Below, in pieces: positions 4,708 through 50,389 of a stretch of 64,000 nucleotides of DNA (positions are counted from its first letter, which is position 1; each line of letters starts with the position of its first letter). This DNA comes from Halichondria panicea. Its lineage: Eukaryota; Porifera; Demospongiae; Suberitida; Halichondriidae. The notes under the pieces were generated by a model. The model saw only the letters and a list, made by a program, of their open reading frames with translations. It was not told where the DNA came from and ran no database searches. Position numbers and translations under genes: made by a program. Location: assembly GCF_963675165.1 (NCBI RefSeq), contig NC_087386.1:4470169-4534168 (forward strand), written 5' to 3'.

Positions 4708-6308
4708 GGCATACTAACTGTATCAATCCAAGTCTACGTCCTATATTACACTATTGAACTATTTTTGCTGTGCAGTGCAAATACGCATGGCATTTTTTCT
4801 TTTTCGATTCTCATTAATGTTCTGTAAATCTCCTCTCACCTACTTTAATTTCTAGTATGTGTTTGTGTGCGTTTCTTTTGTTCACTGTGACGTTTCAATT
4901 ATCAGATATCAGTACTTGCTTAGCAACACCGTATACGTACGTATTCTGTACCCAGCACAGCTACATCTAACTGTACTGTGTTAAAAAGGTGTGTTGCGTA
5001 ATAATTATCCTACTGTTAATTATGTGTTTTATTTGGTGCAGTTACAGGCACTGTCAGTTTACTGTTTTTGTATGTATACCATTTTTGATGTCAGGAAATG
5101 ATGATGTTTGATTCAGCTGCGTCTTTGGCGGCTGCACATGTATACATAATTATAGTCTATGACAAGCTAGGATCAATCTGGGGAATATTCACATAAGATC
5201 AATAATAATCATTATTGTCTCCTATATTGCTTTTGTCCGTGTTAAGGGTGTAGCATAATTGTAACACTGCATGTCTATAGCTAGACGCAACAGTACAGTA
5301 TAGCACCAAATATAATATTGTGCTAATTGCCTAAATTCCCAGATTCTATTACTGTTATAGATTGTTTCGAAGATGAGGTTCTAATAATTGGAACTGAACA
5401 ATGATTTAGTATTAACCTCTGATTTATTATTAATTATGCTTGTACCTGAAAGTATTGCCTCAGTTGAGCGAACGCAAATGAAAACGAGGGCCGGTGAGAA
5501 ATCGAATTGGAGAGTAGATATAGCGTACCTTAAGGACACTATTTTAAACGGGTACTAAATTTGGCGGTTTGGAGACCTACCAATTTGGCAGGTACTAATT
5601 TTAGCTATTTCATAATTCAGTTTCCAAATTTTTTAATTAGCGATAGGAATAATTATCACACACAATTGAATTGAATGAATTAGCTAGTGTCACAAACAAT
5701 GCATTCAAAAGGGTCCTCTGGTGGTAAAACAGTTGTTCCATCCAATAGTCCTGATATGATATGCCAGCCTTCATCCATCCATTATATATGACTATGCCAG
5801 CCTTCATCCATCCATTATATATGACTTTTCTTCCTTTCTCAGTTGAAAAGAAGTTATACAAGTTAACTAACCATTGGGCATGGAGTGGTTTAATCACTGA
5901 AAGACGAAAGTCAACTTCAACATCTTCAAGAATACACTACTAAACTAGTACTATACTGTACGTACATATACATGTATTATATTTGTTGTACTAGACCTAT
6001 AATGATAGCTAATAGACTACTTCCATTTAAACGAATTTTAAAAATTTCTTTGGTTAAATAAAAGTATGCGAGTACTTATATTAGCGGTTTGGGTCGTTCT
6101 CGCTAAAAACGCTAAATTTAATACCCGTTTATAATAGTGACCTTAAGGTATCACATTTAATGAATAATTACTCACAGATAATTAATAGTCTTGACAGCGC
6201 TACCTAGCATTATTGACATTTGGAACAGAAGACTAACATCAAGAGTATAAATTATAATTATACTAGTCTTCTATAAGTGGCTTTCTCGTCCTGTGATTTC
6301 ATGAATGA
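4708..6308. other. Roquin 3' flank / TSEN15 3' flank, with unit-1 duplication start
   Basis: No gene seen. It holds the Roquin 3'UTR, the left boundary of the tandem duplication (about 4775), a 621-bp MITE (5528-6148), and an imperfect palindrome (about 6228-6273) just beyond the TSEN15 stop codon. Roquin on the plus strand and TSEN15 on the minus strand converge here. Confidence 0.6.
5528..6148. mobile_element. 621-bp MITE present only in duplication unit 1
   Basis: The ends are imperfect inverted repeats of about 33 bp: CCTTAAGGACACTATTTTAA at left, and at right the reverse complement of CCTTAAGGTCACTATTATAA. They are flanked by TA (5526-5527, 6149-6150). The homologous site in unit 2 (TAGCGTATCACA, TA at 16390-16391) is empty, so the boundaries are exact. 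Internally there is a 33-bp tandem duplication (5761-5793 and 5794-5826). An 86-codon minus-strand frame over it shows no recognisable domain. Confidence 0.92.
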
Positions 6309-7326
6309 TCATGTTTTTGATTCAGATGCATCTTTTGGTGGCTGCATTCCATCGAACACATTGTAATACACTACAGTTGAGTCAGAGTCTACTAAAGCTA
6401 GGGTTAGTTTGGGAATGAGCTCACAGAATGGTCCCTCTTCCATTCTACTTGGTTCCAGTTCCATGTGAGAGGCTCGAGGATGAAGAGCAGCAAAGTAGTG
6501 CTTTATCCTGCATGTGCATGTACAGAGCACATAATTATACATGTAGGTTGAGGTATACAAGCACAAGCATACATGTAGGATTCAATTTAAGTAGTTTTGT
6601 TTTTAGTCAGGTCTTCTTTTAGTTGAGGTTTTGTACACTCAGCCAATTTTGGGAGTACTTTTGTGAAAATAATTACCTAAACAAAGGGCTTCATGTTTGC
6701 TCATTTCATAGTTGCAAAACTCCCAACAACATGTCATTGTGCATGCTTCAAGTACTCACCTCTCCATGGACAATTCTGTGCTCGCTGGCAGGGGCAGTAT
6801 ATCGGAGAGGGAGTCCTGTAGTAATGTACATGCATCTACTGTTAGGTCACACGTGTGTGAAATACTATAAATGTAACTGCTGCATAGATACAGACAGATA
6901 CCGATATTACGTACATTCTCCGCTTTTTGTCCACTAAAGGTCACCATTTGTAAGTCTCTATTTCCATGGATATGTACTGCATGCCACAACTTTACTGCAG
7001 AGCAATAATACACCATAAATTAAAGCTAACCATCTTCATTTACCTCGTATACATGCATATCGCATAGACACTTAGTAGAAATTTTCAGACGATTACGGTA
7101 CAAGGGATTCATAAACGGTAAGGATGTACCCTCTGTAAGGTCAAAGTAGGTAAGGATTGCACAGTGTGTTTGAGTGGAGTTGTCAATTCCTTGGGCCTTG
7201 ATCTCACACACCTGCAGTAGAATTAGGAACTCTAATGCATGCATACAAACAATAAAGGTAATCACACAGCCATTATTATACCTTAGGATGAGAACTTATC
7301 CAGCCTTGGTCTTGATGTGTACACAT
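6309..7326 (-). CDS. TSEN15: tRNA-splicing endonuclease subunit Sen15, copy 1
   Basis: Five exons on the minus strand: 7282-7326 (ATG), 7130-7211, 6915-6994, 6760-6815, 6309-6507 (TGA). All phases fit and give 153 residues (human protein about 171). The N-terminal GWISSHPK aligns with human AWMGTHPK, FDLTEVKLWHAVHIHG with the human LDLMESKSWHEV region, and the C-terminal LTLALVDSDSTVVYYNVFDG with [20 protein letters not shown]. Sen15 is a non-catalytic structural subunit that pairs with Sen34 in the nuclear complex which cuts tRNA introns; lack of a catalytic triad is expected. The gene is head-to-head with RNF25 (129 bp between start codons). It differs from copy 2 at three residues in the last exon (R/Q, L/P, D/N). 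Confidence 0.88.
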
Positions 7327-7455
7327 GGTGCCATGTGGTTGTCAGGTTAATTGACCTATGACCTCAAATTAGCTGAGTCATCACTGTTGAATTGGACTGT
7401 GTCTCTGGTACTCGACTGTGTTCTGTCACTTGTACTTGATCTCTGCAGTGTATCT
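7327..7455. promoter_or_regulatory. Divergent promoter TSEN15 / RNF25, unit 1
   Basis: 129 bp separate the start codons of TSEN15 (minus) and RNF25 (plus), so both 5'UTRs and core promoters must overlap or lie here. No TATA box is evident. GACTCGGCTAAT-type and TGACCTCA-like words occur (TGACCTATGACCTCAAATT). The unit-2 equivalent (17570-17707) is nearly identical. Confidence 0.6.
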
Positions 7456-7844
7456 ATGGCGTGCTATGCTCCGTCCAGTGAGAGCCTGTTGAGACAAACA
7501 TCCAGACAGTCATCAAGTGGAGAGTAAGTAGCCAGTACTGAATACATGCAGAATAATAATAATTATTATTTGACATTATATCAACAGTTACAATTCACAT
7601 TGTTTCAGTGTGTTCAGTGATGAACTGGAGTTTCTACAGAATGTGTATTTTGACGACTTAACGTACAAGTCATGTGACCAGGGTAGCCATATCCTCCAGT
7701 TCCGGGTCACCCCCAGTACAGGAGATGACAAGGAGAAACAGTACGTCTACCTGGTGCTCAACATCACTGTGGCAAAGGAGGTACGTGTGGCTACTATAGA
7801 TCTACATGCTGATGCTTTTGAGAGAAAAAAATTGGTTTATCTAT

Positions 7845-8300
7845 TTTGCGCACCCTAGGCATAATTTTGCGCAGCGAGGTATACAGTAGTGTATACGGTA
7901 GTGTGTTTGTCTGTGTAGACTGCTACAGCTGCTCAATGAAGAATAAAGTGCAAGCAAGGGTTTCTAATAGGCTTCTAGCCCACGTTTTTTTTCCAAAACT
8001 TGTCCATGGATTTCGGCTTTGCAAAATAATGCTTCGTTCTCGCTAGTTTTGCTTACAGTACTTAGGAATGCCATTGCAGCCTTTTGAATATTACGTACAT
8101 GTAGCACAACTTGTCCATGGAGTGTTCCTACTCTACTCAGTAGTTATCTCTGCACTAGAACGATAGCTATTGGTAGCTGCACGAGTGAGAAGAGAGCTGC
8201 AAAGCTGTGCTTAGCTGTTTCATGCAGCAGCCATTAATTGTATCTATGAACTTTTGGTATCCTTTTTAGCAACGATCATGGTCGATCATTTCCCACTTTT
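7845..8300 (+). repeat. Dispersed repeat, intronic copy in unit 1
   Basis: This stretch (from TTTTGCGCACCCTAGGCATA to the GATCATGGTCGATC region) recurs in unit 2 at 18097-18555 through the duplication. It is also present inverted and diverged inside the unit-2-specific insert (about 22085-22470), and as a shorter relative at 46455-46620 (shared words GCTATTGGTA, AGAGCTGCAAAGCTG and GCAGCC). This makes it an interspersed family, probably a non-autonomous element. No coding content. Confidence 0.65.
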
Positions 8301-10470
8301 TGCAACTAATAGCTAAACTTGACCGTTAATGTCGTCTGTTTCGTCAGAATGCTTTGATTAGCCCAATTCAACTGCCGAAATTGCATCAGAAATATTTCTG
8401 TTTCACGTGTAGTAATAATTTATATTGACGTTATAAATGAATGAATGATAAATGAATGAATGATGATAATGCTTGGCTGTCCTAATAGCTGATATGGAGT
8501 AGAGGCTTTGACATGGTCATGTGGACATCACATTCTCGTGTCGTTCTTCCGCCTGTCAATAAATTGTTTCCTTCTTTCTTCTCGCGAGGCATAGTCTGGC
8601 TGCAAAACATAAGCAAAGTCTAGCATGACATTATAACCAGTCTACTATAATATTTATACGAACAAAATCTAGCTACATATATAATTATAAAGTTAATAAT
8701 CAACAACAAATTCATTGAAAGCGTATTTTAGCCAAACTAAGACTTACGCATCAATAAAACTTAGTGGACCCGGTGAACAGCCATTACTCTACGCAATAAA
8801 ACTTAGTACATGTACAAACATTCAAAAAATGTGGTTATAGAAATCAACTGACACAAAGAAGGACACCTGAAAACACCTTCAACTGCTATAAGCAGATAGT
8901 TAAAGCATACACAACGTCAGAAGTATGTCGACCCAGTAACTATACATACTGGCTAACTGCTACACATAAAATAAACACAGCAAATTCTTTTCAAACAGCA
9001 AATCAACTGACACAAAGTTATTACAAGAGTAAATACAGCCATTTTCAGCTCCACAAATCAGCTACAACGCTCTGACTGAAACTAAAACTTACTTCGCAGA
9101 CCTAGTAAAGCCAATCACAGTGGTAGCACTTTAGCCTGCAATCGTAGATTCTAGTGACAACAGATTCTTTGCTTGCCAGTAGCTCTGGTAGCTGCGAGGT
9201 AATCATCCTCCCAGCAATACTCCAGATACTATCTGTAATTTAGGGGCGTTTCATATCCATGTAATTTATAGTGTCTATGCTGTAACACAAGCTTAGTTTG
9301 GGTTGTTCTAGTGTATTTTGAGCCAGTTGAGAGTCCATCAGCATATTTCTCATGGATTCAGAATTTTTGGCTGGTTACCATATAGCAGTATATTCTACAG
9401 TGGGTGTTGTCTTCCGGTTGAAGCTATGACATCAGTTACATTCAATTGAAACACGCCAACAATCAACTCCCCCCACGTTATACTGCCTCGTCATCTCATC
9501 AAATGATCTATTAAAACAGATCGTGTTGCATTATTATTAGGTCTGAATTGATATACTAAGACTCTAAAGTTATGATGAATGCAGAACTTTACTATTATGT
9601 TTGCGGTATTATACTTGTTGCCGGGATGATTTTGTGGATTACCAATCTCTTCTTCAGTTCTTTTCTAGGCGTGTGTTTTCGGATCATTTATACTTTGGAG
9701 GATGGAGGCCCAGAGAAATTCATGTTAGATGGGATTTTGTTTTGTTTTAGTTGGCTTGACGTTTGTCTTCCCTGGTAGAATTGATATTAGTAGAATTGAT
9801 ATTCACTCTCTATGTCATTCTTACTTCTGTGGAACGATCACCAGAATCAGCTTCAGCTTTGGAACCACCTGGGTGAAGAACATAATAACATTTAGCGGAC
9901 ATCAGAACAAACTACGATATGTTGTGTACTGTACTGGTATAGATAGACGAGATACACATGAACGTGAGTTGTAAATATAATTATTTTGATGGTTGTATGT
10001 CATACATGTAAGAGACTGGACATTGTGTGTTGATTGTTTTGTATTTGTTACGTAAATGTTAATTTGTGTGACGTAATGCCAGCTACATGTAAGCCTGGAT
10101 TGATTTAGTTTTTGTAAAGAACCTCGTCGAGAACTGAACGCTGTGTGTCTATGTATTTTTTGTGTTGTCTCGATTCATCAAACTCAAGCTACCGTGAATA
10201 GCTAGTCCTACGTATCATCTCGGTGACATTACATCTAGCTCGTACCAAACACAAAACTTAGGCATACTGTAATTCAATTCTGAATCAGTGGTTGAAAGTA
10301 GACGGCGCGTATTCAATGGTAACTACAATGTACACAGTACATAGAGGTATGTACATGTACATGTAGACAACAATTAATAATTATATTGCTCAGGTATAGT
10401 ATTCCGTAGCTCCCTCTATAGAGGGTTTATTCTCACTAACATGTACACTCATGTATATTTACATGTACAG
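8301..10470 (+). other. Long RNF25 intron 2 remainder (unit 1)
   Basis: No supported exon. Contains an ATGAATGA-type short repeat (about 8436-8464), a 68-codon hydrophobic frame (9572-9778) considered separately, and otherwise unique AT-rich sequence. The unit-2 counterpart is about 18556-20725. Confidence 0.5.
9572..9778 (+). CDS. Hypothetical small membrane peptide (weak)
   Basis: A 68-codon frame in RNF25 intron 2, repeated without change at 19828-20034 in unit 2. It has two hydrophobic stretches (YYYVCGIILVAGMILWITNL and a C-terminal one ending WLDVCLPW). A second overlapping +1 frame (9729-9974) continues the hydrophobic character. I do not recognise a family. The duplication is young, so preservation in both units is weak evidence. 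It could be a chance frame, or one exon of an unrecognised nested gene. Confidence 0.2.
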   Translation: MMNAELYYYVCGIILVAGMILWITNLFFSSFLGVCFRIIYTLEDGGPEKFMLDGILFCFSWLDVCLPW

Positions 10471-10538
10471 TACCCTCATGTCGTTCCTGGGTGCTCGCTA
10501 GGGCAGTCTCGTGGTCTCTCAGATACTCACTTGAAGAG

Positions 10539-11668
10539 GTAATTAAGGGACATACGTACGTGTGTGTGTGTGTGCGCGCGCGCGCGCGTGTGTGTATGTG
10601 TTCCATTGCAACTCCCGCTACGATGAAGGAGTAACCATGCCTGTGCAAACACACACACGTAGCCAGTAGACTAGCTAACAGCTTACATTGACAAATATAC
10701 ATGACTGTACATGTAGTATATGGTCTTATGACTCACATCACATGTTTTGTGGAAATAAAATATACCCAATAGAATAAGGTATAGTTACATGTAATTCTTA
10801 CATTTGTATTAGTTGAATTTCGAAGGTACGTATTGGCTACTTGATCCTACGAAATTTGAGATAGCATGTACAGCATTGACCGTGTTACGGGTGCACAACA
10901 CGTGGGAAACAATGTTTCATGAATTATGATCACTGTAAGATATTCAGAGCCCCCCTAAAACGTCATTCTCATGCCCCCTAATGGTGAAGATCAGTTGGAA
11001 AAGAAAAAATACATTTTTGACTTTTGTGAAGATAGCTAGAGATACAAAAAATTCTTTTTGTCACACTATGAGATCTTTATGTACGTAGAATGCTTCTATG
11101 ACTGGTGTACTACGTTGTATGGTCTCAAGTGTCAGTTGGAAGTGCAAGTTTTAGTACAACTGTAGTAGAATCTATTGCAGACAGCGGTACATGTACTATC
11201 TAGCCTAGATTTTACTCAACGTTAGATACATAGCCTCTATTAAACCCCGGCATAACACGGATATAATTCGAGGTAACTTCCATTTTCAATCCCTCTCCCT
11301 CTTTAATCTATGGTACAATCAACCCTTTGGCACATCAGCAGTGGCTGCAAATAAGAAACATGATATGTTGGACACGTGGGGCCTTCACTCACCTGGCTAA
11401 CAGTTCTTGTAGTGTATTACGGAGCAGAGGAGGTGCGAGGCACATGAAGTTTTTCATGCCTCGGTCAAAATTCAATTGCGTGTTACCAATGTTAATATGC
11501 ATGTGTAAAGTGTCTACTATATGTGAGTGTCTACTATAATTATGTGTTACTCTGTTACCAATACACTGGTATTTCATTTTATGTGCAACCAATATACATA
11601 ATATCTATAGTGCTCAAATTAATGATTGGGGTTAAAGACATGTATAGGGTAGCTTCATTAATTATTAG
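10539..11668. other. Unit-1 intron remainder up to the island
   Basis: Contains a TG/CG alternating tract (10557-10598), then sequence shared with unit 2 up to about 11487. After that the alignment jumps to the equivalent of 26723 for about 50 bp (AAAGTGTCTACTATA) and is lost at about 11547. This marks the deletion and replacement boundary. No gene. Confidence 0.55.
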
Positions 11669-12727
11669 TTAAACAGTTTTCAATGCGTTTGAGCCTTCAC
11701 GTTTAGTGCTAGCATTTCCGACTACTGTGATAATAGTCATTTCCGAGTGCACTCTGTTTGACTTCCTAGTACAAAGCTCTTCTCTCCAGTTCTTTCTCAA
11801 CCTGGTGTTGAAATAGAGCAGTGTGATTGGGTAGGACACTCCCTGTAGACAGCTGATAAAAGCAAATGTCACACCTTCTGCGAAATTGGCCCAGTTTCCA
11901 AGGTAATCTTTCACTCCTGCTAACTTTAAAACTTCAGAAAATGCTGTGCCAATCAAATAACCTAATAGTCCATTGCATAAGATGATAAACACCATCAAAA
12001 TAGGCATTAGCAGAAGTTTTCTGTTCAAGTGTCTGTATTCTTGGATTTTTTGCCTGACGGACATTTTCTTAAATAGCTGTACAGACCAAACTGAGGTTGC
12101 TATGACTATGACAGAAGCTGGGAGCAGTGTAGACACAAAATATGCTCCTAAAGATATGTTTTCAGGATCACTTGAATTTATTAATGTAGTATTCTGTATG
12201 CATAATGGCTGGCAAGGATTTGATGACGCTGGTAGAAGGATTTGCGGAATCAGTAGCACTGTGAACCAAAACATTCCAGCCAGAAAACTTACTCCGATGC
12301 AAGGGATGATCCTTCTGTAGCTGTTCCATTGCTTCTTCCCTCTGATGATTTGTAGCTGTAACAAGCTCTGGCAAGTAATTATCAGTACAGAAAAAACAGT
12401 GGAAAATGCACCAAACGAATTGGCTATGGAAAACGCTATAATGTTGCATGTGCAACTAAGCAAGTCTGGTGAGACTGTTACGGTTATTATACATTGACCA
12501 ATCTTGTCCACACAAAGCATCAATAACAAAGAACTATAGAGCACCGTTAGAGGCTTGTTGCCAAGCTTGCTCTTGATAAAGGCTGTGAAGACAGTGAGAT
12601 TCCAGAATAGTGTCGACGGGAGTATTACTGCTAAATAAAGGATGATGTCAATAGCTACGAGTGGTTGCCAATACGGAAACTCTTGAGTAACATTGCCATT
12701 ATAGTCATCGTAATCTAGAGACTCCAT
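11669..12727 (-). CDS. Rhodopsin-like 7TM receptor (intronless)
   Basis: A single uninterrupted frame of 352 residues with an extracellular N-terminus carrying an N-glycosylation site (GNVT), seven hydrophobic segments (roughly 25-47, 60-82, 98-120, 138-160, 195-218, 240-265, 285-305) and a basic Ser/Thr tail (RKSNRVHSEMTIITV). The last segment ends YPITLLYFNTRLRKNW, a degenerate form of the class-A NPxxY motif followed by an amphipathic helix 8. The third segment lacks a clear DRY motif (TCQSLLQLQ). Cysteines in loops 1 and 2 could form the usual disulfide. It probably signals through G proteins at the plasma membrane; the ligand is unknown. It lies inside the island that interrupts RNF25 copy 1 and is absent from unit 2. 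Confidence 0.75.
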   Translation of the reverse strand: MESLDYDDYNGNVTQEFPYWQPLVAIDIILYLAVILPSTLFWNLTVFTAFIKSKLGNKPLTVLYSSLLLMLCVDKIGQCIITVTVSPDLLSCTCNIIAFSIANSFGAFSTVFSVLIITCQSLLQLQIIRGKKQWNSYRRIIPCIGVSFLAGMFWFTVLLIPQILLPASSNPCQPLCIQNTTLINSSDPENISLGAYFVSTLLPASVIVIATSVWSVQLFKKMSVRQKIQEYRHLNRKLLLMPILMVFIILCNGLLGYLIGTAFSEVLKLAGVKDYLGNWANFAEGVTFAFISCLQGVSYPITLLYFNTRLRKNWREELCTRKSNRVHSEMTIITVVGNASTKREGSNALKTV

Positions 12728-13207
12728 CTTTAACTGTTATAAACTGTGATTATATTAAATTCTTGCTATTCTCAATAAATTAGGTGTCGTTTACCCCTAT
12801 TCGGCTGAAGTGCAGGCATGTCGGACCTCCTCTGGCTTACACTGCCACATGCACAAGTTATATCATTGTTCCACTCTATACCGTTGCAATGCAGGTGCAA
12901 GTGCATGATAGAGTCTATATAGGCTTTGAGCAACTTTTGGGAATTTTGACCGGTGGATTTTAAAACTCGCTTAGAGGCCATTTTGAAGTCTTTTTATAGT
13001 TTCAGTTCAGACTTAGCGTAGCAACTTGCGTAGAAAAATCTGTAGCTATTCTACTTAGTATAGTTGTCTCTGCAGTAGAGCACAGCTATTACTATACCCG
13101 TGGCCTCCCACGCACGCCTCGGGTAAATATAATATGATTATCACATAACTTTGAGCACGCATACATTAATTGACTCGATACAAAAATATTTATCTATTAA
13201 TATAATT

Positions 13208-14206
13208 TTAAGCCAGATTCTCGTAAGGTCTATATGGATGCACAGACAAATCACGTTTGCAAGTTTGCCGACCCAACTTCCACTTTGAGTTATGATCTGT
13301 TGACCATTGCTGTAAAATGGGCTTCGTTGAATTTTGATACTTGTCTGGTATTTCTGGTCGAATGTCAACGACAATATTATGGTAGATATCATGGGTAAGA
13401 AGGGTCCGTGGGTAACTGCGATGCTTTGGGTTTCGTATTCTAAGACGAGGGTCGATAACTACCTCTCCATTAAATAGGATATTGCACCTGATCATAGTAA
13501 ACAATTGTGAGTACCACCAGCTCACCGAATCGTATTTTGGTGTGTATGGAAGTATGTGGTCCATCACTTGATAGTGAAAGGCGTTAAGAATAGCATCCAT
13601 GTGGTATATTTGTACGTATACTGTGAGTTCACAATTCACCCCCTTGGACAAATTTTCCGTAGAGAAACCCCTATACTCGTTATCTAGGGGGATGATAACT
13701 ACAGCTGGTTGAAAGGTCTTGAGAGACTTCTCGTACATTCTCCATGGATTATGTGCGCTATTTTTAATCATACTTTTCAGTTCAAGATCATCGTCCATGA
13801 AAATGTAGTACATGTACTTTTCTTTCCTTTCTTTGGCTGCTTCGTAAAGCAAGTTTCTTCCAACAGTCCAGGTTGTAGACTTACTAGAGTTGAATATGTA
13901 TTGGACGTGACGCAATGATGTGTCAGCGCACTTCTGTTTGTAACTCAAGATGATTACATCACACTGACAAGCGTCAGAGTCTCCAATCACTTCGGGAGAC
14001 TTTAAATAAGTTGGTATACAGTTCTCTGTTTGCGTTAGATAGAGAAACCGAGCCGATGCTATTTCAATTGTAAACGGCGTTAAGGGCTTATACGTCAAGG
14101 GTTTTATATAAGCCCTTGAGAAATACGGTAGCACAACCATAGAAATGCCAAGCAAAACCAGGAATAATAACATCACCTTACCGAAAAGGGTTCGATTGGC
14201 CATCAT
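13208..14206 (-). CDS. Putative Golgi type II membrane glycosyltransferase (intronless)
   Basis: 332 residues in one exon. The start ATG is followed by a short basic cytosolic stretch, then one hydrophobic signal-anchor (about residues 10-30, VMLLFLVLLGISMVVLPYF) and a lumenal domain. That domain contains CDVIILSYKQKC, an RNLLYEAAKER helix, and YYIFMDDDLELK; the DDD forms a DxD-like metal and nucleotide-sugar site as in GT-A fold transferases. There are N-glycosylation sites (NSSK, NLSK, NSTK). I cannot assign a GT family or acceptor. Its neighbour on the same strand is the 7TM receptor (480 bp downstream). Like that gene, it is found only in unit 1. Confidence 0.55.
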   Translation of the reverse strand: MMANRTLFGKVMLLFLVLLGISMVVLPYFSRAYIKPLTYKPLTPFTIEIASARFLYLTQTENCIPTYLKSPEVIGDSDACQCDVIILSYKQKCADTSLRHVQYIFNSSKSTTWTVGRNLLYEAAKERKEKYMYYIFMDDDLELKSMIKNSAHNPWRMYEKSLKTFQPAVVIIPLDNEYRGFSTENLSKGVNCELTVYVQIYHMDAILNAFHYQVMDHILPYTPKYDSVSWWYSQLFTMIRCNILFNGEVVIDPRLRIRNPKHRSYPRTLLTHDIYHNIVVDIRPEIPDKYQNSTKPILQQWSTDHNSKWKLGRQTCKRDLSVHPYRPYENLA

Positions 14207-14994
14207 TTAGTTGATTTACTGTTGTTGAGTTTTTTCTTTTATAAATGTAGCCTCGTTCCCAGGCCTTCTTTTTCTTGCTGATGTAGTCGAGTTAGAGCCA
14301 TGCAGCGATCAATGTTCCATGCGTCGCCAATCAATAATCACATGAAATTGCGTCTACACGCAGTACAGGAGACTGAGTTGTAAAACAGATGTGGAGAGCT
14401 GGGTCCCACCAAAACTATCGAGATATTCGATGAAAATGATTGCCTAGTAGAACTGCTACAACTTGATTCTAATACCAGAACTACTCTAGTAGTTCAGAGT
14501 ATCCAACCATAATTATGGCAGTTGTAAGTATCTGTCCTGACTTGAACTCTGAAACTCATTTCATGTTTACTTCATAGTTATTACACCATTCTCGTGTATG
14601 CATGCGTATAATTAGAAATGAAAGTGAATATTGAATGATTACACAAGACAAAACACGTAAATAAAGTGAATCTAGTAAATCTACAAAACAAAGCAAAAAA
14701 AACAGGAAACTAATACTATAATTAGAGTAAATAAGTAAGTCTTTAGGTTAGATTAAAAATACTATATGAACAACAGTATATAGGCAATTGTAGCGGGTAA
14801 CGAGTTCCACAGGAAAACACTATTAACAAAAAAACTAGTGTATTTACAAACTAAGGAAAGACTATGAGAATGAATATGTAGGAGTAAAAATCCGAAAATT
14901 AAAGGCAATCCATTATCTTATACGTCTGACAACAGATTAGAATTAACTCATGACATTTAGCTGGAGGGAGCCAGTTGAGATTTTGTCTACACTC
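14207..14994. other. Island right flank, no gene
   Basis: Begins with the glycosyltransferase upstream region, which contains TAGCCTCGTTCCCAGGCC, a word seen again near 33667 (GCCTCGTTCCCAG) and 55964 (GTCTCGGTCCCAGGCC), suggesting an element end. The rest is AT-rich unique sequence. RNF25 homology resumes at about 14995. Confidence 0.45.
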
Positions 14995-15500
14995 CTCAGG
15001 AAGAAAACTAGACAGGTGGGAGCCCGTACGTTAGAGTACGTATGTACAATAGAAGCAATGTCAGTAGCTTCCAGTTTGAATGGCTACGCAAATTGAAGGA
15101 TTCTGTATTCGTCCAATTTAACTGTAGAGAGTACACATTTATCATATCACTTCCTCTTTGTAGCTCGAGTGCCCCGTATGTCGTGTATATCTATAGACAC
15201 ATCAACCTTGAGCTTTGACCCCTCTAAAACAATGGCAACTCCAGTGAAAGGCGTTACATTTCAACCGTTACCCAAATTGAGAGCATGGCAAAATAAAATG
15301 GAGGCATTACTATTGAAACAGCGGCGGAAAGGTGGAGTGATTGACACGAGTCAATCTGATGTCATTGATGGAACATGGGTAATAAGAGACTATACATGTA
15401 TTAGACAACTTGTATCTGCATGTAGACATATTCGTATTCTGATACCTATATAATATAGCCTTTTGTGCATTGACCGTTTGTAGTTATAATGGATGGAACT

Positions 15501-15511
<11 letters not shown>

Positions 15512-15585
<74 letters not shown>
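15512..15585. repeat. (CA)n microsatellite
   Basis: About 74 bp of nearly pure CA dinucleotides with one CC interruption, directly before the acceptor of the broken RNF25 exon 8. In unit 2 the same place (27749-27784) has only a short degenerate CACACAC/CACCACA tract, so the array expanded or shrank after duplication. Confidence 0.9.
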
Positions 15586-16477: not shown

Positions 16478-16532
16478 AGAAGACTAACATCAAGAGTATA
16501 AATTATAATTATACTCTTGATGTTAGTCTTCT
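16478..16532. repeat. Perfect 23-bp palindrome beyond TSEN15-2
   Basis: The arms AGAAGACTAACATCAAGAGT+ATA (16478-16500) and the reverse complement (16510-16532) are separated by AATTATAAT. In unit 1 the right arm has lost CTTGATGTT. It lies 37 bp past the TSEN15 stop, so it would be in that 3'UTR if transcribed. It may be a transposon footprint or a 3'-end hairpin. Confidence 0.8.
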
Positions 16533-16568
16533 ATAAGTGGCTTTCTCGTCCTGTGATTTCATGAATGA

Positions 16569-17569
16569 TCATGTTTTTGATTCAGATGCATCTTTTGGTG
16601 GCTGCATTCCATTGAACACATTGTAATACACTACAGTTGAGTCAGAGTCTACTAAAGCTAGGGTTAGTTTGGGAATGAGCTCACAGAATGGTCCCTCTTC
16701 CATTCTACTTGGTTCCGGTTCCATGTGAGAGGCTTGAGGATGAAGAGCAGCAAAGTAGTGCTTTATCCTGCATGTGCATGTACAGAGCACATAATTATAC
16801 ATGTAGGTTGAGGTATACAAGCATACATGTAGGAATCAATTTTTTTTAGTTAGGTATTCTTTTAGTCGAGGTTTTGTACACTCGGCCAATTTTGGGAATA
16901 CTTTTGTGAAAATAATTACCTAAACAAAGGGCTTCATGTTTGCTCATTTCATAGTTGCAAAACTCCCAACAACATGTCATTGTGCATGCTTCAAGTACTC
17001 ACCTCTCCATGGACAATTCTGTGCTCGCTGGCAGGGGCAGTATATCGGAGAGGGAGTCCTGTAGTAATGTACATGCATCTACCGTTAGGTCACACGTGTG
17101 TGAAATACTATAAATGTAACTGCTGCATAGATACAGACAGATACCGATATTACGTACATTCTCTGCTTTTTGTCCACTAAAGGTCACCATTTGTAAGTCT
17201 CTGTTTCCATGGATATGTACTGCATGCCACAACTTTACTGCAGAGCAATAATACACCATAAATTAAAGCTAACCATCTTCATTTACCTCGTATACATGCA
17301 TATCGCATAGACACTTAGTAGAAATTTTCAGACGATTACGGTACAAGGGATTCATAAACGGTAAGGATGTACCCTCTGTAAGGTCAAAGTAGGTAAGGAT
17401 TGCACAGTGTGTTTGAGTGGAGTTGTCAATTCCTTGGGCCTTGATCTCACACACCTGCAGTAGAATTAGGAACTCTAATGCATGCATACAAACAATAAAG
17501 GTAATCACACAGCCATTATTATACCTTAGGATGAGAACTTATCCAGCCTTGGTCTTGATGTGTACACAT
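16569..17569 (-). CDS. TSEN15: tRNA-splicing endonuclease subunit Sen15, copy 2
   Basis: Five exons on the minus strand: 17525-17569, 17373-17454, 17158-17237, 17003-17058, 16569-16767, giving 153 residues with the same phases as copy 1. All splice sites are kept and there is no stop, so both copies look functional. Differences from copy 1 in the last exon are HPQASHMEPE against HPRASHMELE, and NVFNGMQ against NVFDGMQ. The last lies in the conserved strand-turn (YYKLTDG in human), where Asp is usual, so copy 1 looks the more conservative. It is head-to-head with the intact RNF25 (138 bp between starts). Confidence 0.88.
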
Positions 17570-17707
17570 GGTGCAGTGCCATGTACGTGGTTGTCAGGTT
17601 AATTGACCTATGACCTCAAATTAGCTGAGTCATCACTGTTGAATTGGACTGTGTCTCTGGTACTCGACTGTGTTCTGTCACTTGTACTTGATCTCTGCAG
17701 TGTATCT
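17570..17707. promoter_or_regulatory. Divergent promoter TSEN15 / RNF25, unit 2
   Basis: 138 bp between start codons, nearly identical to 7327-7455 apart from a small insertion (GCAGTGCCATGTACG). It must serve both genes. Confidence 0.6.
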
Positions 17708-20700
17708 ATGGCGTGCTATGCTCCGTCCAGTGAGAGCCTGTTGAGACAAACATCCAGACAGTCATCAAGTGGAGAGTAAGTAGCCAGTACTGAATACATG
17801 CAGAATAATAATAATTATTATTTGACATTATATCAACAGTTACAATTCACATTGTTTCAGTGTGTTCAGTGATGAACTGGAGTTTCTACAGAATGTGTAT
17901 TTTGACGACTTAACGTACGAGTCATGTGACCAGGGTAGCCATATCCTCCAGTTCCGGGTCACCCCCAGTACAGGAGATGACAAGGAGAAACAGTACGTCT
18001 ATTTGGTGCTCAACATCACTGTGGCAAAGGAGGTACGTGTGGCTACTATAGATCTACATGCTGATGCTTTTGAGAGAAAAAAATTGGTTTATCTATTTTG
18101 CGCACCCTAGGCATAATTTTGCGCAGCGAGGTATACAGTAGTGTATACGGTAGTGTGTTTGTCTGTGTAGACTGCTACAGCTGCTCAATGAAGAATAAAG
18201 TGCAAGCAAGGGTTTCTAATAGGCTTCTAGCCCACGTTTTTTTTCCAAAACTTGTCCATGGATTTCGGCTTTGCAAAATAATGCTTCGTTCTCGCTAGTT
18301 TTGCTTACAGTACTTAGGAATGCCATTGCAGCCTTTTGAATATTACGTACATGTAGCACAACTTGTCCATGGAGTGTTCCTACTCTACTCAGTAGTTATC
18401 TCTGCACTAGAACGATAGCTATTGGTAGCTGCACGAGTGAGAAGAGAGCTGCAAAGCTGTGCTTAGCTGTTTCATGCAGCAGCCATTAATTGTATCTATG
18501 AACTTTTGGTATCCTTTTTAGCAACGATCATGGTCGATCATTTCCCACTTTTTGCAACTAATAGCTAAACTTGACCGTTAATGCCGTCTGTTTCGTCAGA
18601 ATGATTTGATTAGCCCAATTCAACTGCCGAAATTGCATCAGAAATATTTCTGTTTCACGTGTAGTAATAATTTATATTGACGTTATAAATGAATGAATGA
18701 TAAATGAATGAATGATGATAATGCTTGGCTGTCCTAATAGCTGATATGGAGTAGAGGCTTTGACATGGTCATGTGGACATCACATTCTCGTGTCGTTCTT
18801 CCGCCTGTCAATAAATTGTTTCCTTCTTTCTTCTCGCGAGGCATAGTCTGGCTGCAAAACATAAGCAAAGTCTAGCATGACATTATAACCAGTCTACTAT
18901 AATATTTATACGAACAAAATCTAGCTACATATATAATTATAAAGTTAATAATCAACAACAAATTCATTGAAAGCGTATTTTAGCCAAACTAAGACTTACG
19001 CATCAATAAAACTTAGTGGACCCGGTGAACAGCCATTACTCTACGCAATAAAACTTAGTACATGTACAAACATTCAAAAAATGTGGTTATAGAAATCAAC
19101 TGACACAAAGAAGGACACCTGAAAACACCTTCAACTGCTATAAGCAGATAGTTAAAGCATACACAACGTCAGAAGTATGTCGACCCAGTAACTATACATA
19201 CTGGCTAACTGCTACACATAAAATAAACACAGCAAATTCTTTTCAAACAGCAAATCAACTGACACAAAGTTATTACAAGAGTAAATACAGCCATTTTCAG
19301 CTCCACAAATCAGCTACAACGCTCTGACTGAAACTAAAACTTACTTCGCAGACCTAGTAAAGCCAATCACAGTGGTAGCACTTTAGCCTGCAATCGTAGA
19401 TTCTAGTGACAACAGATTCTTTGCTTGCCAGTAGCTCTGGTAGCTGCGAGGTAATCATCCTCCCAGCAATACTCCAGATACTATCTGTAATTTAGAGGCG
19501 TTTCATATCCATGTAATTTATAGTGTCTATGCTGTAACACAAGCTTAGTTTGGGTTGTTCTAGTGTATTTTGAGCCAGTTGAGAGTCCATCAGCATATTT
19601 CTCATGGATTCAGAATTTTTGGCTGGTTACCATATAGCAGTATATTCTACAGTGGGTGTTGTCTTCCGGTTGAAGCTATGACATCAGTTACATTCAATTG
19701 AAACACGCCAACAATCAACTCCCCCCACGTTATACTGCCTCGTCATCTCATCAAATGATCTATTAAAACAGATCGTGTACGTTGCATTATTATTAGGTCT
19801 GAATTGATATACTAAGACTCTAAAGTTATGATGAATGCAGAACTTTACTATTATGTTTGCGGTATTATACTTGTTGCCGGGATGATTTTGTGGATTACCA
19901 ATCTCTTCTTCAGTTCTTTTCTAGGCGTGTGTTTTCGGATCATTTATACTTTGGAGGATGGAGGCCCAGAGAAATTCATGTTAGATGGGATTTTGTTTTG
20001 TTTTAGTTGGCTTGACGTTTGTCTTCCCTGGTAGAATTGATATTAGTAGAATTGATATTCACTCTCTATGTCATTCTTACTTCTGTGGAACGATCACCAG
20101 AATCAGCTTCAGCTTTGGAACCACCTGGGTGAAGAACATAATAACATTTAGCGGACATCGGAACAAACTACGATATGTTGTGTACTGTACTGGTATAGAT
20201 AGACGAGATACACATGAATGTGAGTTGTAAATATAATTATTTTGATGGTTGTATGTCATACATGTAAGAGACTGGACATTGTGTGTTGATTGTTTTGTAT
20301 TTGTTACGTAAATGTATTTACTTAATTTGTGTGACGTAATGCCAGCTAAGCCTGGATTGATTTAGTTTTTGTAAAGAACCTCGTCGAGAACTAAACGCTG
20401 TGTGTCTATGTATTTTTTGTGTTGTCTCGATTCATCAAACTCAAGCTACCGTGAATAGCTAGTCCTACGTATCATCTCGGTGACATTACATCTAGCTCGT
20501 ACCAAACACAAAACTTAGGCATACTGTAATTCAATTCTGAATCAGTGGTTGAAAGTAGACGGCGCGTATTCAATGGTAACTACAATGTACACGGTACATA
20601 GAGGTACGTACATGTACATGTAGACAACAATTAATAATTATATTGCTCAGGCATGGTATTCCGTAGCTCCCTCTAGAGGGTTTATTCTCACTAACATGTA

Positions 20701-23700
20701 CACTCATGTATATTTACATGTACAGTACCCTCATGTCGTTCCTGGGTGCTCGCTAGGGCAGTCTCGTGGTCTCTCAGATACTCACTTGAAGAGGTAATTA
20801 AGGGACACACGTACATGTATGTATGTATATGTGTGTGTGTATGTATATGTGTTTCATTGCAACCCCCGCTACGATGAAGGAGTAACTATGCCTGTGCAAA
20901 CACACACACGTAGCCAGTATACTAGCTAACAGCTTACATTGACAAATACATGACTGTACATGTAGTATATACCTTCAGTACAGTCTGCTCCCCACCATGT
21001 AATAGTATCTTTGTCTGTTGTTGGTCTTATGACTCACGTCACATGTTTTGTGGTAATAAAATATACCCAATAGAATAAGTATAGTTACATGTAATTCTTA
21101 CATTTGTATTGGTTGAATTTCGAAGGTACGTATTGGCTACTTAATCTTACGAAATTTGAGATGGCACGTACAGCATTGACCGTGTTACGGTTGCACAACA
21201 CGTAGGAAATAATGTTTCATGAATTATGATCACTGTAAGATATTCAGAGCCCCCCTAAAACGTCATTCTCATGCCCCCTAATGGTGAGCAATCGGTTGGA
21301 AAAATTTTTGACTTTTGTAAAGATAGCTAGAGGTACAAAACGTTCTTTTGTCACGCTATGAGATCTTTATGTACCTAGAATGCTTTTAATAATGAAAGCA
21401 CCGCAGGTGCTGATGCCTCGGTGGAGGTGCCAAAGCTACATAACATAAAACTACTAATAGCTAGCTTTTATACACACATTGATTATTGGGGCGAGCGAAG
21501 CGAGTCCCTACCTAGTCTTCAACGTTGCAATTTTGTCTGTATGTATGTATGTATCCATACGTCATGGACCGGCACAATGATTTGCTTTTGGGACTGCCGA
21601 CTTCCACCGTTGCAATTTTGTCTGTATGCATCCATACGTCATGGACCGGCACAATGATTTGCTTTTGGGACTCATGATCCTTACCGACTTCCACCAGGTG
21701 GTCTTACATTGGACGTATTTGGCCAAAATGTAGCAGCAATTACTGAAATAGATGAAGCCGAAGTCACTGCTGACAACCTAATCTCTGCACAGCCCTTCTC
21801 ATGTTCTTATAATGGTACTGTCATGAACTCAGTTACGCGACCTTGATAACTACCAGTGCAAATGTAAAATGCTTCTACTACGTATACTAAATTAATAACC
21901 TTGAATTTAAATACAACATATTTCTTTTAATTCGTAAAACAAGCATGTTTTCTTACGCTCGCCCCACAATGTTCAACATAATTATCATGATGAACATCTT
22001 TAATTTTGCTGCATGCAATCAACCGAATAGTGGGTAATGATCAACCATGATTGTTGTTAAAAACGATCGATGCCAAAAGTTCAAGTCTAAAATTATGGCT
22101 GCAAGTCAGCAGAGCCTTGCAGCTCTCTGCTCATTCTTGCAGCTACCAATAGCTAGCGTTCTAATGCAGAGCTAACTACTAAGTAGAGTAGTAACACTCG
22201 GTGAACAAGTTTTGCTACGGACTCTTCTGAAAAGGCTGCAATAGCATTCCAAGTAAGCAAAACTAGGCATATCTCGAGAACGAAGCATTATTTTGCAAAT
22301 CCACGAATTAAAATCCAAGTAAACATGACTAGAAGCCTATAGAAACTCTTACTTGCACTTGATTCATCCTTGAGCAGCTGTAGCGGTCTACACACACACA
22401 CACACACACAGACACACAAACACACTACCGTATACCTCGCTTGCGCATGCGCACCGAGGCATAATTATAGCTAAGACTGGTGTACTACTTTGTATGGTCT
22501 CAAGTGTCAGTTGGAAGTGCAAGTTTTAGTACAACTGTAGTAGAATCTATTGCAGACAGCGGTACATGTACTATCTAGCCTAGATTTTACTCAATGTTAG
22601 ATACATAGCCTCGATTAAACCCGGGCATAACACGGTTGTAAATCGAGGTAACTTCCATTTTCAATCCCTCTCCCTCTTTAATCTATGGTACAATCAACCC
22701 TTTGGCACATCAGCAGTGGCTGCAAATAAGAAACATGCTATGTTGGACACGTGGGGCCTTCACCCACCTGGCTAACAGTTCTTGTAGTATATTACGGAGC
22801 AGAGGAGGTGCGAGGCACAGGAAGTTTTTTATGCCTCGGTCAAAATTCAATTGCGTGTTACCTGACAATGCACAAGCACAGCTGCCAAATTATATAGAAT
22901 ACATGTATAGCTATATCAGCTTAATCCTCCCTATTAATTCTTTTAGAATCTTCAAGAGGGATGCCTGGCGTTGCCATGAGTAGCAATTCGTTTAATCTGC
23001 TATTGAACTTTGACCTGGATATAATAAGGAATGTGGTGCATAAAAACACTTCCTGCGCCTCGACATCCCCTCCTGTGGTTATAGAGAGTGCAAGTATGTG
23101 TTTATAGGGTGACCACTGTCACAACAGACATCATCGTTTTTTAGCCGCAGCTATTTTCTGAAATGCGCAGCCACCTCGCTATTCTGGCAAGCTGCACTGT
23201 CCCAAAGGTGGCCGGATTAACGAGAGTCTTGTACATGTCTATAAATTTATGATCTAATTAAACCCATTTCCCCTCCCCCTTCCCCTCCCCTCAGCATACT
23301 AGACGGTCTGTGTCGCAAGTGTGAGGAGCTGTTGGGCTGTGAAATGATCTATCAACTGGTGGAGTTCACGAAAGAGTGTCTCACTGACAACAACTTACCC
23401 AGTGGAGAGTGTGCCATATGTCTATCGGGATTCGAGGTACCGTATTACTAGTCTAAGAATGTTTTGCGAGCATCAAATATTTGTGAACTTTGCGATGGTT
23501 GATCAATTCGCAACAATAAAACCCACAAAACCTAAATTGTTACTAGTAAATACACACCAAAACGCAATAGTTAGATCGCAAAGGGTACTGATTTGGCTCA
23601 TTCACAAAGGTGTTTCACCCGCAAAAAGTAATACGGTAATGCAATACAAACGTGTTTGCACAGTGAGATAAGGTTTCATTTCTTGAACTATATTAGTGTC

Positions 23701-26700
23701 TTATTTCTATTCACAGCACATCACTTATTCAGCATTGTATATTCTTGGAATGTTTAGCTCGGCATTCAAGAAATGAAATCCCATTATATTTTACCAAGGA
23801 TACCCGTACTACATACATTAATCACAACACTCAATCAGCAATGGCATTGCCTCTTATGGACAGTGTGTGCCGTGTCCATGTGTTATTTTAGATACACAAA
23901 AGTACATGTACATGACTTGTGTATATCACTTTTAAGTTCAGTAGGCTTAAGATCATTGTTTGTTCTTTTTAGGGATAACTATATTTATTGCTTTTTAATA
24001 AATGCTGACATCAACGTTTTACATTCAAGGAAGCGACTTATCACTAAGTGTGCAGATATTTTTCCATATCGAACACCCGGAAGTATTATTCAGTCTACAC
24101 TAAGACTCCCGGAAGTGTGTATTACACAGTTCATTTGCCAATTTATATGGGCCCTTATGGGAGATAATGATATTCATAGTTCGCAGTAGTATCAAAAACA
24201 GTAACACTGCTTTTGTCAAGGATAACTTTTCATCAGAAGGTGCCTATCACTATTAAATGATATACAAATAATGCTGAATAAATAAGCTACTGAATGATAT
24301 AAAAATTAAGTGGTAAAAAAGTACTGAATTGCTGCATTGTATGAAAGAAAACTGGTGATATTTATATTTTCTGTGACTTTGATTTCCGGGCAAATTAGTA
24401 ATGGGGGTGCTGGAGAGATACAGATAGGCCTAAACCAGGGGCGTAGCCAGGATTTGAGATAGGGGGTGCTTATTACCAATGGGGGTGGGGGCACTCCCCC
24501 AGAAAATTTTTGTTGTTACATGCTCTGAGATTGATTCTAACGCAATCTGGCTAAAGAAATGAGGGTACTGCTACTTTGAGGGTACTGGTGGTTAAGCCAC
24601 ATCTTCATTTGAAGATGTCCTATAAAATGCATTGTTTTGAGTTGTGACAATTAAATCATGCAGCTGCTAACCAGGTTCTGCTTGTGAATTAGCAGGACAG
24701 GGTGGCAAGCCACTTGCAGTTGCAGTGCTGCTCTGTGAACTGGGCTCAACGGAAAAATACTCATGATGATGATGGTGATAGCTGCTGAACATTAACAGTC
24801 TGCAACTCTGTGGGGGACCTTGGTCTGCTCAGCACGTGGCTTTGCGCATGTGCACTGACTGGAATGAATATTTGGAGGTGGAGCTAGATAGTTAGAGGTG
24901 GAGTTTTGAGTTGATAGAGCTCTAGTTACTCTCGATCTCATATCAGCTAGCTAGTTAGTAAAATGAACTTGTGGAGCAGAGTCTGAGGCCAGAGGGGGGT
25001 GCTGGAGCACCCTCTGGCTACGCCACTGTAAACTATAGACAACACTGGTAACTACAAGTAGACCAAATAAGAACACTAATGACCCAGGTTTGACTAAGAT
25101 ACAACAAAGTAAACATTGACAAAAATGAGTAAGTTTAGCTCTTGCCTACTTGCCACTTGAGTGTCCAGAGTTTCTTGAAACTGCCTAGATAGCTAATATA
25201 ATGCTAGAAGTTAGTCTTTGCAAAGAAATAAACAGCATCCGCTTTGCCAATATTTTTTTATAGCAGGTCTTGTGTTCTAACATTGGCCAGTTTATTGGAT
25301 ATATCCTGTTTGGACTGACTTTGATATCTGGGCAAATTAGTACTCCCCAGTTCTGGATCCTAATTTTCCTGTGACCAGTTCATGAATACTATATCTACTA
25401 GTACTGTGACTCTGGAACCTGGCTTACACTTCAGGACCTGGGTATTGATGCTGGAAAAACTGAAAAAGTTGTTTCTTTATCCAATTCTGATAGTAAACAA
25501 TGACGTAACAGAAGCCATAATTAAATTTACGGAGAATTACTGTAGTATTTACAAGCCACAAACAGGAAATTTACTCACTATGATGCAAAACCACAATTAC
25601 ATCATTTGAAGCCAAAATTGTAGTCTTAGTGTAGACTGTATTGCACACTTGTTATTGCACACTAGAAAGTGCTTCTTATTTGGAATGAAAAGTTTTCAGC
25701 AGTGAGAGAATAAGAAAAACATAGTTTACACACTTATAATCATGCATTGCAATGTTTATCAGTCTCTTTTCTGCTCTGTATCACTTCTTTGCTCTTTTGC
25801 AGTGAGGCTGAGGATCAGGAACTTGTCAGTGTTCAGTTTAGCAGTCATATTTAATGCATCAAACAGGCATCTGTGTTGGGACTGAGTACTTTGAGCAGAA
25901 TATTGAACAGGTAGAAGCGTATTGCACCACCATTTAGATTTTGTTTAGGCTCTTGTAAATGGTTTTGACTTCAAAACGGTTGTCACACTTTTTTTATGCT
26001 ATAGCGGTCCATGTTTCCTCTTCTGATACACTGCAGCATGATAGAAAGCAAGCACACGCTGTTTATCCTTCAGAACTATCCGTTTTCAAAACAGGTTGCT
26101 GGTTGTCAACGCTGTCTTTTTTCTTGTCTGTTCTCTGCACAATCTTTAAGTAGCCTTCTGCAAGCTCTCCAGGTGTTCTAGAGTCTTATTTTTTTGTCTT
26201 TCAGCCGTTTTCTTTCTCTTAAACTCGTCTTCAACTGGGAGAAACTCAATTTTGTTGCTACGCATCCTTCTGGTTTACAAAGCAACCGCATGTCGCACAT
26301 GTGCAGATTCAACCTGCATTTTGGTTGCTAAGCAATAAATGCATTATCCCATGGATACTGATAATTATCACTCGTCTGTGCCTAGTAACTGTCACGAGTA
26401 CCTACAGTATCCATAGTTATTATAACATGTTTTCGACCCAACCCTACTATTAGCCCGGTAGTGCTAAGGATATAGTACATTATTTTTGTTTGTATTGACG
26501 TGTACGCAGTGTTATTGTAAATGTTCTGATGTCAAATTGTTGGGAAACCTCGTTTTGTTGGGGTACGTTATAGAGTGTTTCCGCTGTATCCTCTAGTACT
26601 GTTTGTTTGGGCTCTACACCAACGGCAAGTGACCTCTAATAATAAGGTGCCCTATAGGGTCATTATTTAGAGGTTCCACTATTACTGTTCTATACGCATG

Positions 26701-28384
26701 TTATAATTATTGTATATATACGTGTGTAAAGTGTCTACTATACGTGTTACTCAGCTCTGTCCTCTGCCCCGTTCAGGAGAGTGATGAGTTTCAGAAGACG
26801 GACTGCTATCATTACTTTCATCTTCCCTGTCTGGCCGACTATCTTCACTATTATCAGAGACAGGTGCTACTAATGAAACGTGTGTATACGTTGTATCAGT
26901 TACAGCGACAAACACAGCGACAGATGCTTGGGGTTTTTATGAATAGTGACCTACTTATACACTAGTCATGCAGGTTCAACATAAAGTTATGTATGTGTAG
27001 AATGTAAGACATCCATTAATAAACTCTTTAGCAATACTGCACATCTTCGATTCATTCGTGTGCTTCTTAGGGGAGTTTTTACATCTGTAGGTGTGTTATT
27101 GGTAAAACTAAAACTCATGGCATATGTTAACCTACATGTATGCACACTGTGTAACCTGCTACTCACTGTACACATTTCATGTATCACACAGTTGTTGGAG
27201 GACCAAGAGGAGGACAGAAAGGTCGATATGATGCTCAGGAAGAAAACTAGACAGGTGGGAGCCCGTACGTTAGAACACGTGTGTACAACAGAAGCAATGT
27301 CAGTAGCTTCCATTTTGAATGGCTACGTAAATTGAAGGATTCTGTATTCGTCCAATTTATTACAGTAATCTGTCACTGTAGAGAGTACACATTTATCATA
27401 TCGCTTCCTATTTGTAGCTCGAGTGCCCCGTATGTCGTGTATCTATAGACACATCAACCTTGAACTTTGACCCCTCTAAAACAATGGCAACTCCAGTGAA
27501 AAGCATTGCATTTCAACCATCACCCAAATTGAGAGAATGGCAAAATAAAATGGAGGCATTACTATTGAAACAGCGACGGAAAGGCGGAGTGATTGATACG
27601 AGTCAATCTGATGTCATTGATGGAACATGGGTAATTAAGAGACCTACATGTACATGTATTAGGCAACTGTATACTGTAGACATACCTATAGCCTTTTGTG
27701 CATTAATGGTACTTGTACTGGATGGAACTTCATTATCATTTTATTACACACACGCACACTACACACCACACACCACACACACAGGTGAGTACTGTTTCCA
27801 TCACTAGCAAAAATGACCAATCTACAATCTCTAAAAGTGAAAGCACCGAAGACATCAAAAAATCTGAACCAAGCCTATCAAAAACCTCCCCAAAGACAAA
27901 CAGGAAGAGAAACGATTATTCCCGAGTTAAAAGCTCCACCTATCAAAGAAACGATCGCAAACCAAAACAAGAACAAGTAGACGGAACGTCTAAGTCTAGT
28001 TTATATGGACGATACAAAAGAGAAGATAACAAAAGTGGAGCACATCAGAGTGGGCCGAAAAGAACTAGAGCTCGTGATCCGGTCAAAAGTGGCAGCTCAA
28101 AGAACAATAAGCACGAATCAGAAGGAGCCACTTTCAAAATCCCTGTTTCAAAAACTGTAGTAGGCGAAATAACGATAATGTCTGGAGGAACCGAATCAAT
28201 TTCTACCCGGATAACATCATCAAGTAAAGAAGATAATATTCACAAAAACGAATCTCGTTCAAAAGATAGATCGTATGTATCCAAGATTGGCGATGGCCGT
28301 GATACTCGAAGGCCCAGGGAATCGGGAGGTGTAAGAGGGGGGAAACCTGGTTCCAGAGGCCTCGAAACCAAGACAACAAGCTAA
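17708..28384 (+). CDS. RNF25: RWD-RING E3 ubiquitin ligase RNF25, complete copy
   Basis: Eight exons: 17708-17775, 17861-18032, 20726-20793, 23295-23436, 26777-26863, 27192-27254, 27418-27630, 27785-28384 (TAA). They total 1413 nt and 470 residues (human 459), with every phase consistent. The RWD domain spans about residues 25-130, including VFSDELEFLQNVYFDDL and YPHVVP...RGLSDTHL, like human YPHEVP...RGLSDEQI. The split RING starts CAICLSGF, continues CYHYFHLPCL and closes with LECPVCR after a charged insert of about 30 residues, as in human. A conserved QRRKGGVIDTS block follows, then a Ser/Lys/Arg-rich tail ending GSRGLETKTTS (human ends RRESLGLESKDGS). RNF25 ubiquitylates ribosomal and signalling substrates, working with UBE2D/E enzymes. 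Introns 3-4 are loaded with mobile elements. Confidence 0.92.
18556..20725 (+). other. RNF25 intron 2 (unit 2), no exon seen
   Basis: Near-identical to 8301-10470. Repeats the 68-codon hydrophobic frame at 19828-20034. The dispersed repeat copy lies just before it at 18097-18555. Confidence 0.5.
21413..22462. mobile_element. About 1.05-kb insert specific to unit 2
   Basis: Relative to unit 1, unit 2 carries extra DNA between TAGAATGCTT (21377-21386) and GACTGGTGTAC (from about 22476). Its ends form a short inverted repeat, ATGCCTCGGTG (21413-21423) and CACCGAGGCAT (22452-22462). Inside are two tandem copies of about 85 bp (about 21522-21607 and 21609-21696, sharing CGTTGCAATTTTGTCTGTAT and CATACGTCATGGACCGGCAC). 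An inverted relative of the 7845-8300 dispersed repeat is also present (about 22085-22440). No transposase. The exact target duplication is unclear. Confidence 0.7.
23440..23636. mobile_element. 197-bp MITE abutting the RNF25 exon 4 splice donor
   Basis: The ends CCGTATTACT and AGTAATACGG are inverted repeats flanked by TA (23438-23439 and 23637-23638). The interior has repeated TTGCGA/TCGCAA words. Exon 4 ends at 23436, so the donor is G-T-A from host and target followed by C-C-G from the element (GTACCG). Confidence 0.75.
23640..26776 (+). other. Element-rich RNF25 intron 4
   Basis: About 3.1 kb without a supported exon. It includes the hAT-like element (24436-25028). The words CAGTCTACACTAAGACT (24091-24107) and its reverse complement (about 25622-25638) bracket it. 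A 26-bp near-direct repeat GACTTTGAT..GGGCAAATTAGTA occurs at about 24375 and 25318. A CCTCTAA/TTAGAGG hairpin centred on GCCCTATAGGG(C) lies near 26631-26675. A 138-codon frame (23773-24189) and a 75-codon frame (25382-25609) show no domain I know. Probably nested, decayed elements. Confidence 0.5.
24436..25028. mobile_element. hAT-like non-autonomous element
   Basis: The left end CAGGGGCGTAGCCAG and right end CTGGCTACGCCACTG are inverted repeats with one mismatch. CAG(G/T)GGCGTAGCCAG is a typical terminal sequence of hAT-superfamily elements. Subterminal GGGGGTGC/GCACCC words are also present. TAAAC borders both ends (24431-24435, 25029-25033); this is shorter than the 8 bp usual for hAT, so the target duplication may have decayed. 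The interior (593 bp) has no transposase. Confidence 0.75.

Positions 28385-37931: not shown

Positions 37932-50389
<12,458 letters not shown>

Follow-up and report, generated by a model that had tools for sequence, protein, structure and literature searches.

A probable tandem duplication of TSEN15 and RNF25, with one decayed RNF25 copy, in the sponge Halichondria panicea

A 64,000-nucleotide stretch of the genome of the sponge Halichondria panicea (assembly GCF_963675165.1, contig NC_087386.1, positions 4,470,169 to 4,534,168 of the forward strand; hereafter the window) was found to carry two adjacent direct copies of a segment that holds the genes TSEN15 and RNF25, with unique sequence on both outer flanks. 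Unit 1 spans 4775-15677 (10,903 bp) and unit 2 spans 15678-27868 (12,191 bp), both on the plus strand, as delimited by self-BLAST and alignment; these coordinates and lengths confirm the two direct units of 10.9 and 12.2 kb described in an earlier note on this DNA. We consider it likely that the locus is a real direct tandem duplication generated by end joining, after which the spare RNF25 copy decayed and the core of the units was homogenised.

The two units are collinear in six direct blocks detected by self-BLAST (unit 1 / unit 2): 4771-5527 / 15674-16391, 6148-10721 / 16389-20970, 10721-11095 / 21022-21385, 11096-11487 / 22471-22862, 14995-15430 / 27234-27684 and 15554-15677 / 27746-27868. 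By alignment of the edges, homology was found to begin sharply at 4775/15678 and to stop at 15677/27868, with unrelated sequence outside. At the junction of the units (15677/15678), the unit-1 copy of the last RNF25 exon is cut after 83 bp; the same point falls at 84 bp in unit 2, as exon 8 of unit 1 has a 1-bp deletion. The three breakpoint contexts have exactly one base in common, the A before the break, and the earlier claim of at most 1 bp of homology is borne out. That note had also described the junction as a fusion of the last exon of RNF25 (plus strand) to the 3' flank of a Roquin gene. The RNF25 side of this description holds. The Roquin label of the left gene is unconfirmed, as three of three open reading frames (ORFs) tested from 1-4707 were without a Pfam match (E threshold 1 for one of them and 0.01 for the other two). 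As a separate observation, GTGCA occurs twice in tandem at 4770-4779, exactly at the left breakpoint, with the second copy starting the unit; this may be coincidence.

Apart from the units themselves, no repeat pair linking the 4.7-kb and 27.9-kb edges was present among the BLAST pairs listed above 80 bp. Given this result and the single base of homology, end joining or a template switch is favoured over recombination between repeats, in agreement with the earlier note; its alternative term, replication slippage, is a poor name for an 11-kb event. Non-allelic homologous recombination between dispersed repeats at both breakpoints would draw some appeal from the mobile-looking repeats in and near the units, but the breakpoint contexts have only that 1 bp in common and long repeats at both breakpoints were not found among the same pairs, so that we regard this origin as highly improbable. 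Classical end joining would account for such a junction, as would a near-blunt template switch. On the RNF25 side, an (AC)n array (15508-15586) stops 91 bp short of the junction and may have played a part; near the left edge (4775), no repeat array was found among those listed within 900 bp. In Payen et al. 2008 (PMC2518615), yeast duplications by microhomology/microsatellite-induced replication are described with 5-10 bp of microhomology or low-complexity stretches at their breakpoints, one junction being described as adjoining a microsatellite. The sponge locus is similar to these yeast cases in its duplication without long homology and in the microsatellite near one breakpoint. It differs in that its 1 bp falls short of 5-10 bp and in that the (AC)n array is 91 bp away and at one breakpoint only.

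TSEN15 is present in both units, as had been claimed, each copy with five predicted exons and an open frame on the minus strand (6309-7326 in unit 1 and 16569-17569 in unit 2), arranged head to head with RNF25. Its identity rests on a Pfam Sen15 match to the last exon in a scan of the unit-1 copy (E 5.1e-08). Splice sites of TSEN15 are predicted and were chosen with the human protein as a guide. When both copies are read from the downstream acceptor of exon 4, three amino-acid differences and two silent ones separate them. At the CAGTAG acceptor of this exon (6839-6841 in unit 1), CAG is changed to CGG in the unit-2 copy near 17083 with loss of the upstream AG; use of the upstream acceptor in unit 1 would add one codon.

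A complete RNF25 was detected only for unit 2, as the earlier note had stated. This gene (17708-28384, plus strand) starts in unit 2 and ends in the right flank; its eight exons have GT-AG ends and an open frame, and encode a predicted protein of 470 aa. In Pfam, the predicted protein matched RWD (E 3.4e-17) and, above the respective cut-offs, two RING families, and the best solved-chain match of its first 221 aa was RNF25 (E 1.8e-20). An N-terminal RWD domain, a RING and a sequence match to RNF25 thus identify the predicted gene as RNF25. In unit 1, exons 1-3 are retained (7456-10538, plus strand) and differ from those of unit 2 by one amino-acid change and two silent ones. Exons 4 and 5 were searched for in unit 1 and not found; together with 42 bp of exon 6, they lie in a unit-2 segment (22863-27233, plus strand) that is absent from unit 1. 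What follows in unit 1 is a 3' remnant (14995-15677, plus strand) in which the final 21 bp of exon 6 are followed by exon 7 and by the start of exon 8, the latter cut at the junction. This remnant has a 2-bp insertion in exon 7 and a 1-bp deletion in exon 8, each of which shifts the frame, and 13 of 18 changed codons of exons 7 and 8 alter the amino acid when the codon holding the gap is skipped. A working gene of this type would have its RING exons and an open frame, and the unit-1 copy was found to have neither. Judged by its sequence, unit-1 RNF25 can no longer serve as an E3 ligase gene and is best described as a decayed, truncated pseudogene; its decay resembles that expected of a redundant copy.

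Where RNF25 exons 4 and 5 and the initial 42 bp of exon 6 would be expected, unit 1 carries a segment of its own at 11488-14994. Compared to 22863-27233 of unit 2, this segment is non-homologous except for one 31-bp block (11495-11525, equal to 26716-26746), and besides this block a window-wide search (E up to 1e-3) gave no match to it. The score of the block exceeded that of every one of 500 comparisons made with 201-bp pieces drawn at random from the part of the window right of the units, and the partner of the block sits just upstream of RNF25 exon 5 in unit 2. Based on the position of the block, unit 1 seems to have lost about 3.85 kb and then to have exchanged the next 0.5 kb or so, ending 21 bp short of the exon 6 end, for about 3.5 kb. 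The segment has two intronless ORFs on the minus strand, each predicting a protein. The first, of 352 aa (11669-12727), has six predicted membrane segments and is receptor-like by eye. The second, of 332 aa (13208-14206), combines a DDD motif with a hydrophobic N-terminal anchor and is transferase-like by eye. Neither protein matched a Pfam family above its curated cut-off, and the 332-aa protein likewise matched none in NCBIfam (0 families). For the latter, no relatives were found in genome contigs or in viral contigs (seven of seven candidate stretches failed in each scan), its best PDB match was at E 0.28, and its predicted structure was unusable, with a mean predicted local distance difference test score of 33.9.

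Further insertions are restricted to single units. A 621-bp element similar to a miniature inverted-repeat transposable element is present only in unit 1 (5528-6148); it is TA-flanked, its inverted ends are identical at 35 of 40 positions, and its empty TA site is retained in unit 2 at 16390-16391. No further copy of its ends was found in the window, both matches (2/2) being its own ends. By self-BLAST and alignment, unit 2 alone has 51 bp at 20971-21021; also restricted to unit 2 is a 1,085-bp insertion (21386-22470) that contains an inverted 77% relative of 7901-8300. A search for terminal repeats in the 3.5-kb and 1,085-bp segments detected short local matches only.

Divergence between the units was found to be strongly uneven. 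With unit-1 bases (indel bases included) as denominators, substitutions were 11/753 in the left flank (4775-5527), 15/1188 at 6148-7335, 13/3205 at 7336-10540, 21/475 at 10621-11095, 13/392 at 11096-11487, 18/388 at 14995-15382 and 10/83 at 15595-15677. Three sets of rows were excluded from these counts: 8 at 5528-5538, where the alignment extends into the inserted element; 15 from the dinucleotide array (10541-10620); and 32 from 15383-15594, which aligns poorly. The core that holds TSEN15 and RNF25 exons 1-3 (6148-10540) differs at 28/4393 (0.64%) compared to 62/1338 (4.6%) in the right part (Fisher p 3.1e-20, with the left flank in neither group). The long near-identical stretches of the earlier note are therefore real for about 6.1-10.5 kb, at 0.64%, and do not extend to the blocks further right, which diverge by 3.3-12%. 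The step, of about 7-fold, sits at the dinucleotide array and the 51-bp indel, where the large structural mismatches start. This step was overlooked in the earlier note, as were the replaced 3.5 kb and the frameshifts. About 3.6 of the 4.4 kb of the core lie outside predicted exons, and thus coding constraint does not account for its low divergence. The step is as expected of gene conversion limited to the collinear part, which probably homogenised the core.

From the observed breakpoints and gene contents we infer the following mechanism and order of events. One end 3' of the upstream gene (4775) and another in the last exon of RNF25 (27868) would have been joined essentially without homology, on sister chromatids or via a replication template switch. 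The outcome would have been a complete RNF25 in unit 2 and a copy truncated in its last exon in unit 1. The spare copy would then have decayed, with a deletion and the 3.5-kb insertion removing its RING exons and with exons 7 and 8 gaining frameshifts, while mobile elements inserted into single units. Gene conversion may have kept the core of TSEN15 and RNF25 exons 1-3 near identical as the structurally mismatched right part drifted. The locus is like an ordinary tandem segmental duplication generated by end joining or template switch in its direct orientation, retained introns, single truncated gene copy and near-blunt junction without flanking repeats; no essential difference was apparent, although one unit has been heavily remodelled since.

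Several points weigh against this history. The junction at 15677/15678 is taken from the assembled sequence. Uneven divergence and single-copy insertions occur between alleles too, and recombination between alleles could be the source of the divergence step. The longest substitution-free run of the core measures 892 bp and is only weakly unusual (P 0.047, 10,000 random placements); conversion tracts are thus putative, and individual ones do not stand out. Finally, the comparison covers two sequences, and direction and timing are therefore tentative.

The presence/absence differences and the strongly uneven divergence are also what would be seen if a real duplication had joined two different homologues. 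By such a route, divergent parental alleles would have been placed in cis, with end joining fixing old heterozygosity as a tandem pair whose differences in part predate the duplication and with the shared TSEN15/RNF25 promoter core alone being homogenised afterward. This origin is not required, as the same data are accounted for by gene conversion together with insertions at a later stage, and the decay of unit-1 RNF25 is easier once redundancy existed; we judge it rather improbable. Taken together with the history set out above, it makes a real duplication of one kind or the other very likely.

The main rival is an artefact of assembly, in which two divergent haplotypes of a single-copy locus are placed in series (a heterotype false duplication). 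The large presence/absence segments and the differences of 0.4-12% between the units are of a kind that divergent haplotypes can show, and the same layout, including a gene copied beside itself, is found in the false duplications described by Ko et al. 2022 (PMC9516828), which are alike in placing two divergent copies in series over a gene. By contrast to those cases, no gap is present here and one copy is a decayed pseudogene. The window has 0 N, and the 1 bp in common at the junction is too little for a read overlap. In addition, the artefact reading requires that one of the two haplotypes be a decayed RNF25 null, with frameshifts of 2 bp and 1 bp and without exons 4-5. The demand in the earlier note that an artefact be excluded is legitimate, yet the sequence leans against an artefact (no N, no overlap and a unit-1 RNF25 that is a pseudogene rather than allele-like), and we consider this explanation unlikely. 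The note had proposed half coverage of each unit as a refuting result. That test is too simple, as a real duplication carried by one homologue also has haploid depth; Ko et al. mention a case of this kind (PMC9516828).

A number of other features were detected. Right of RNF25 are three intronless receptor-like genes (28670-29752, 30409-31473 and 31911-33056), of which the first matched Pfam GPR_Gpa2_C (E 6.6e-07) and the other two gave weak matches under the curated cut-off. At 34605-35578 lies a probable non-autonomous DNA transposon of 974 bp. Its inverted ends are perfect over 90 bp, each arm has subterminal tandem repeats of 15 bp, and ACTTGC stands immediately on either side. Further right are a 54-bp unit present twice at 98% (44828-44936) within a long, charged minus-strand ORF, an ORF similar to the BAT2 N-terminus (49520-50011, minus strand, E 2.9e-18) and a Pex2/Pex12-domain ORF (50916-51833, plus strand, E 8.3e-29) with an end that is cysteine-rich and RING-like by eye. 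No Rfam family at gathering score and no tRNA was found in the whole window. A 19-base pattern from the unit start was without a match in genome contigs; its sole match in a viral contig was rejected as chance, the contig having no BLAST match to the window.

The locus is thus probably real and represents ordinary biology, a tandem duplication in which one gene copy has decayed. Its practical value is for annotation: two TSEN15 genes and a spurious short RNF25 may be called here by a gene finder, and the pair shows why claims of gene gain from divergent tandem units should first be backed by reads. If real, the locus would be a clear case, in an animal genome, of duplication followed by decay of one copy and local homogenisation.
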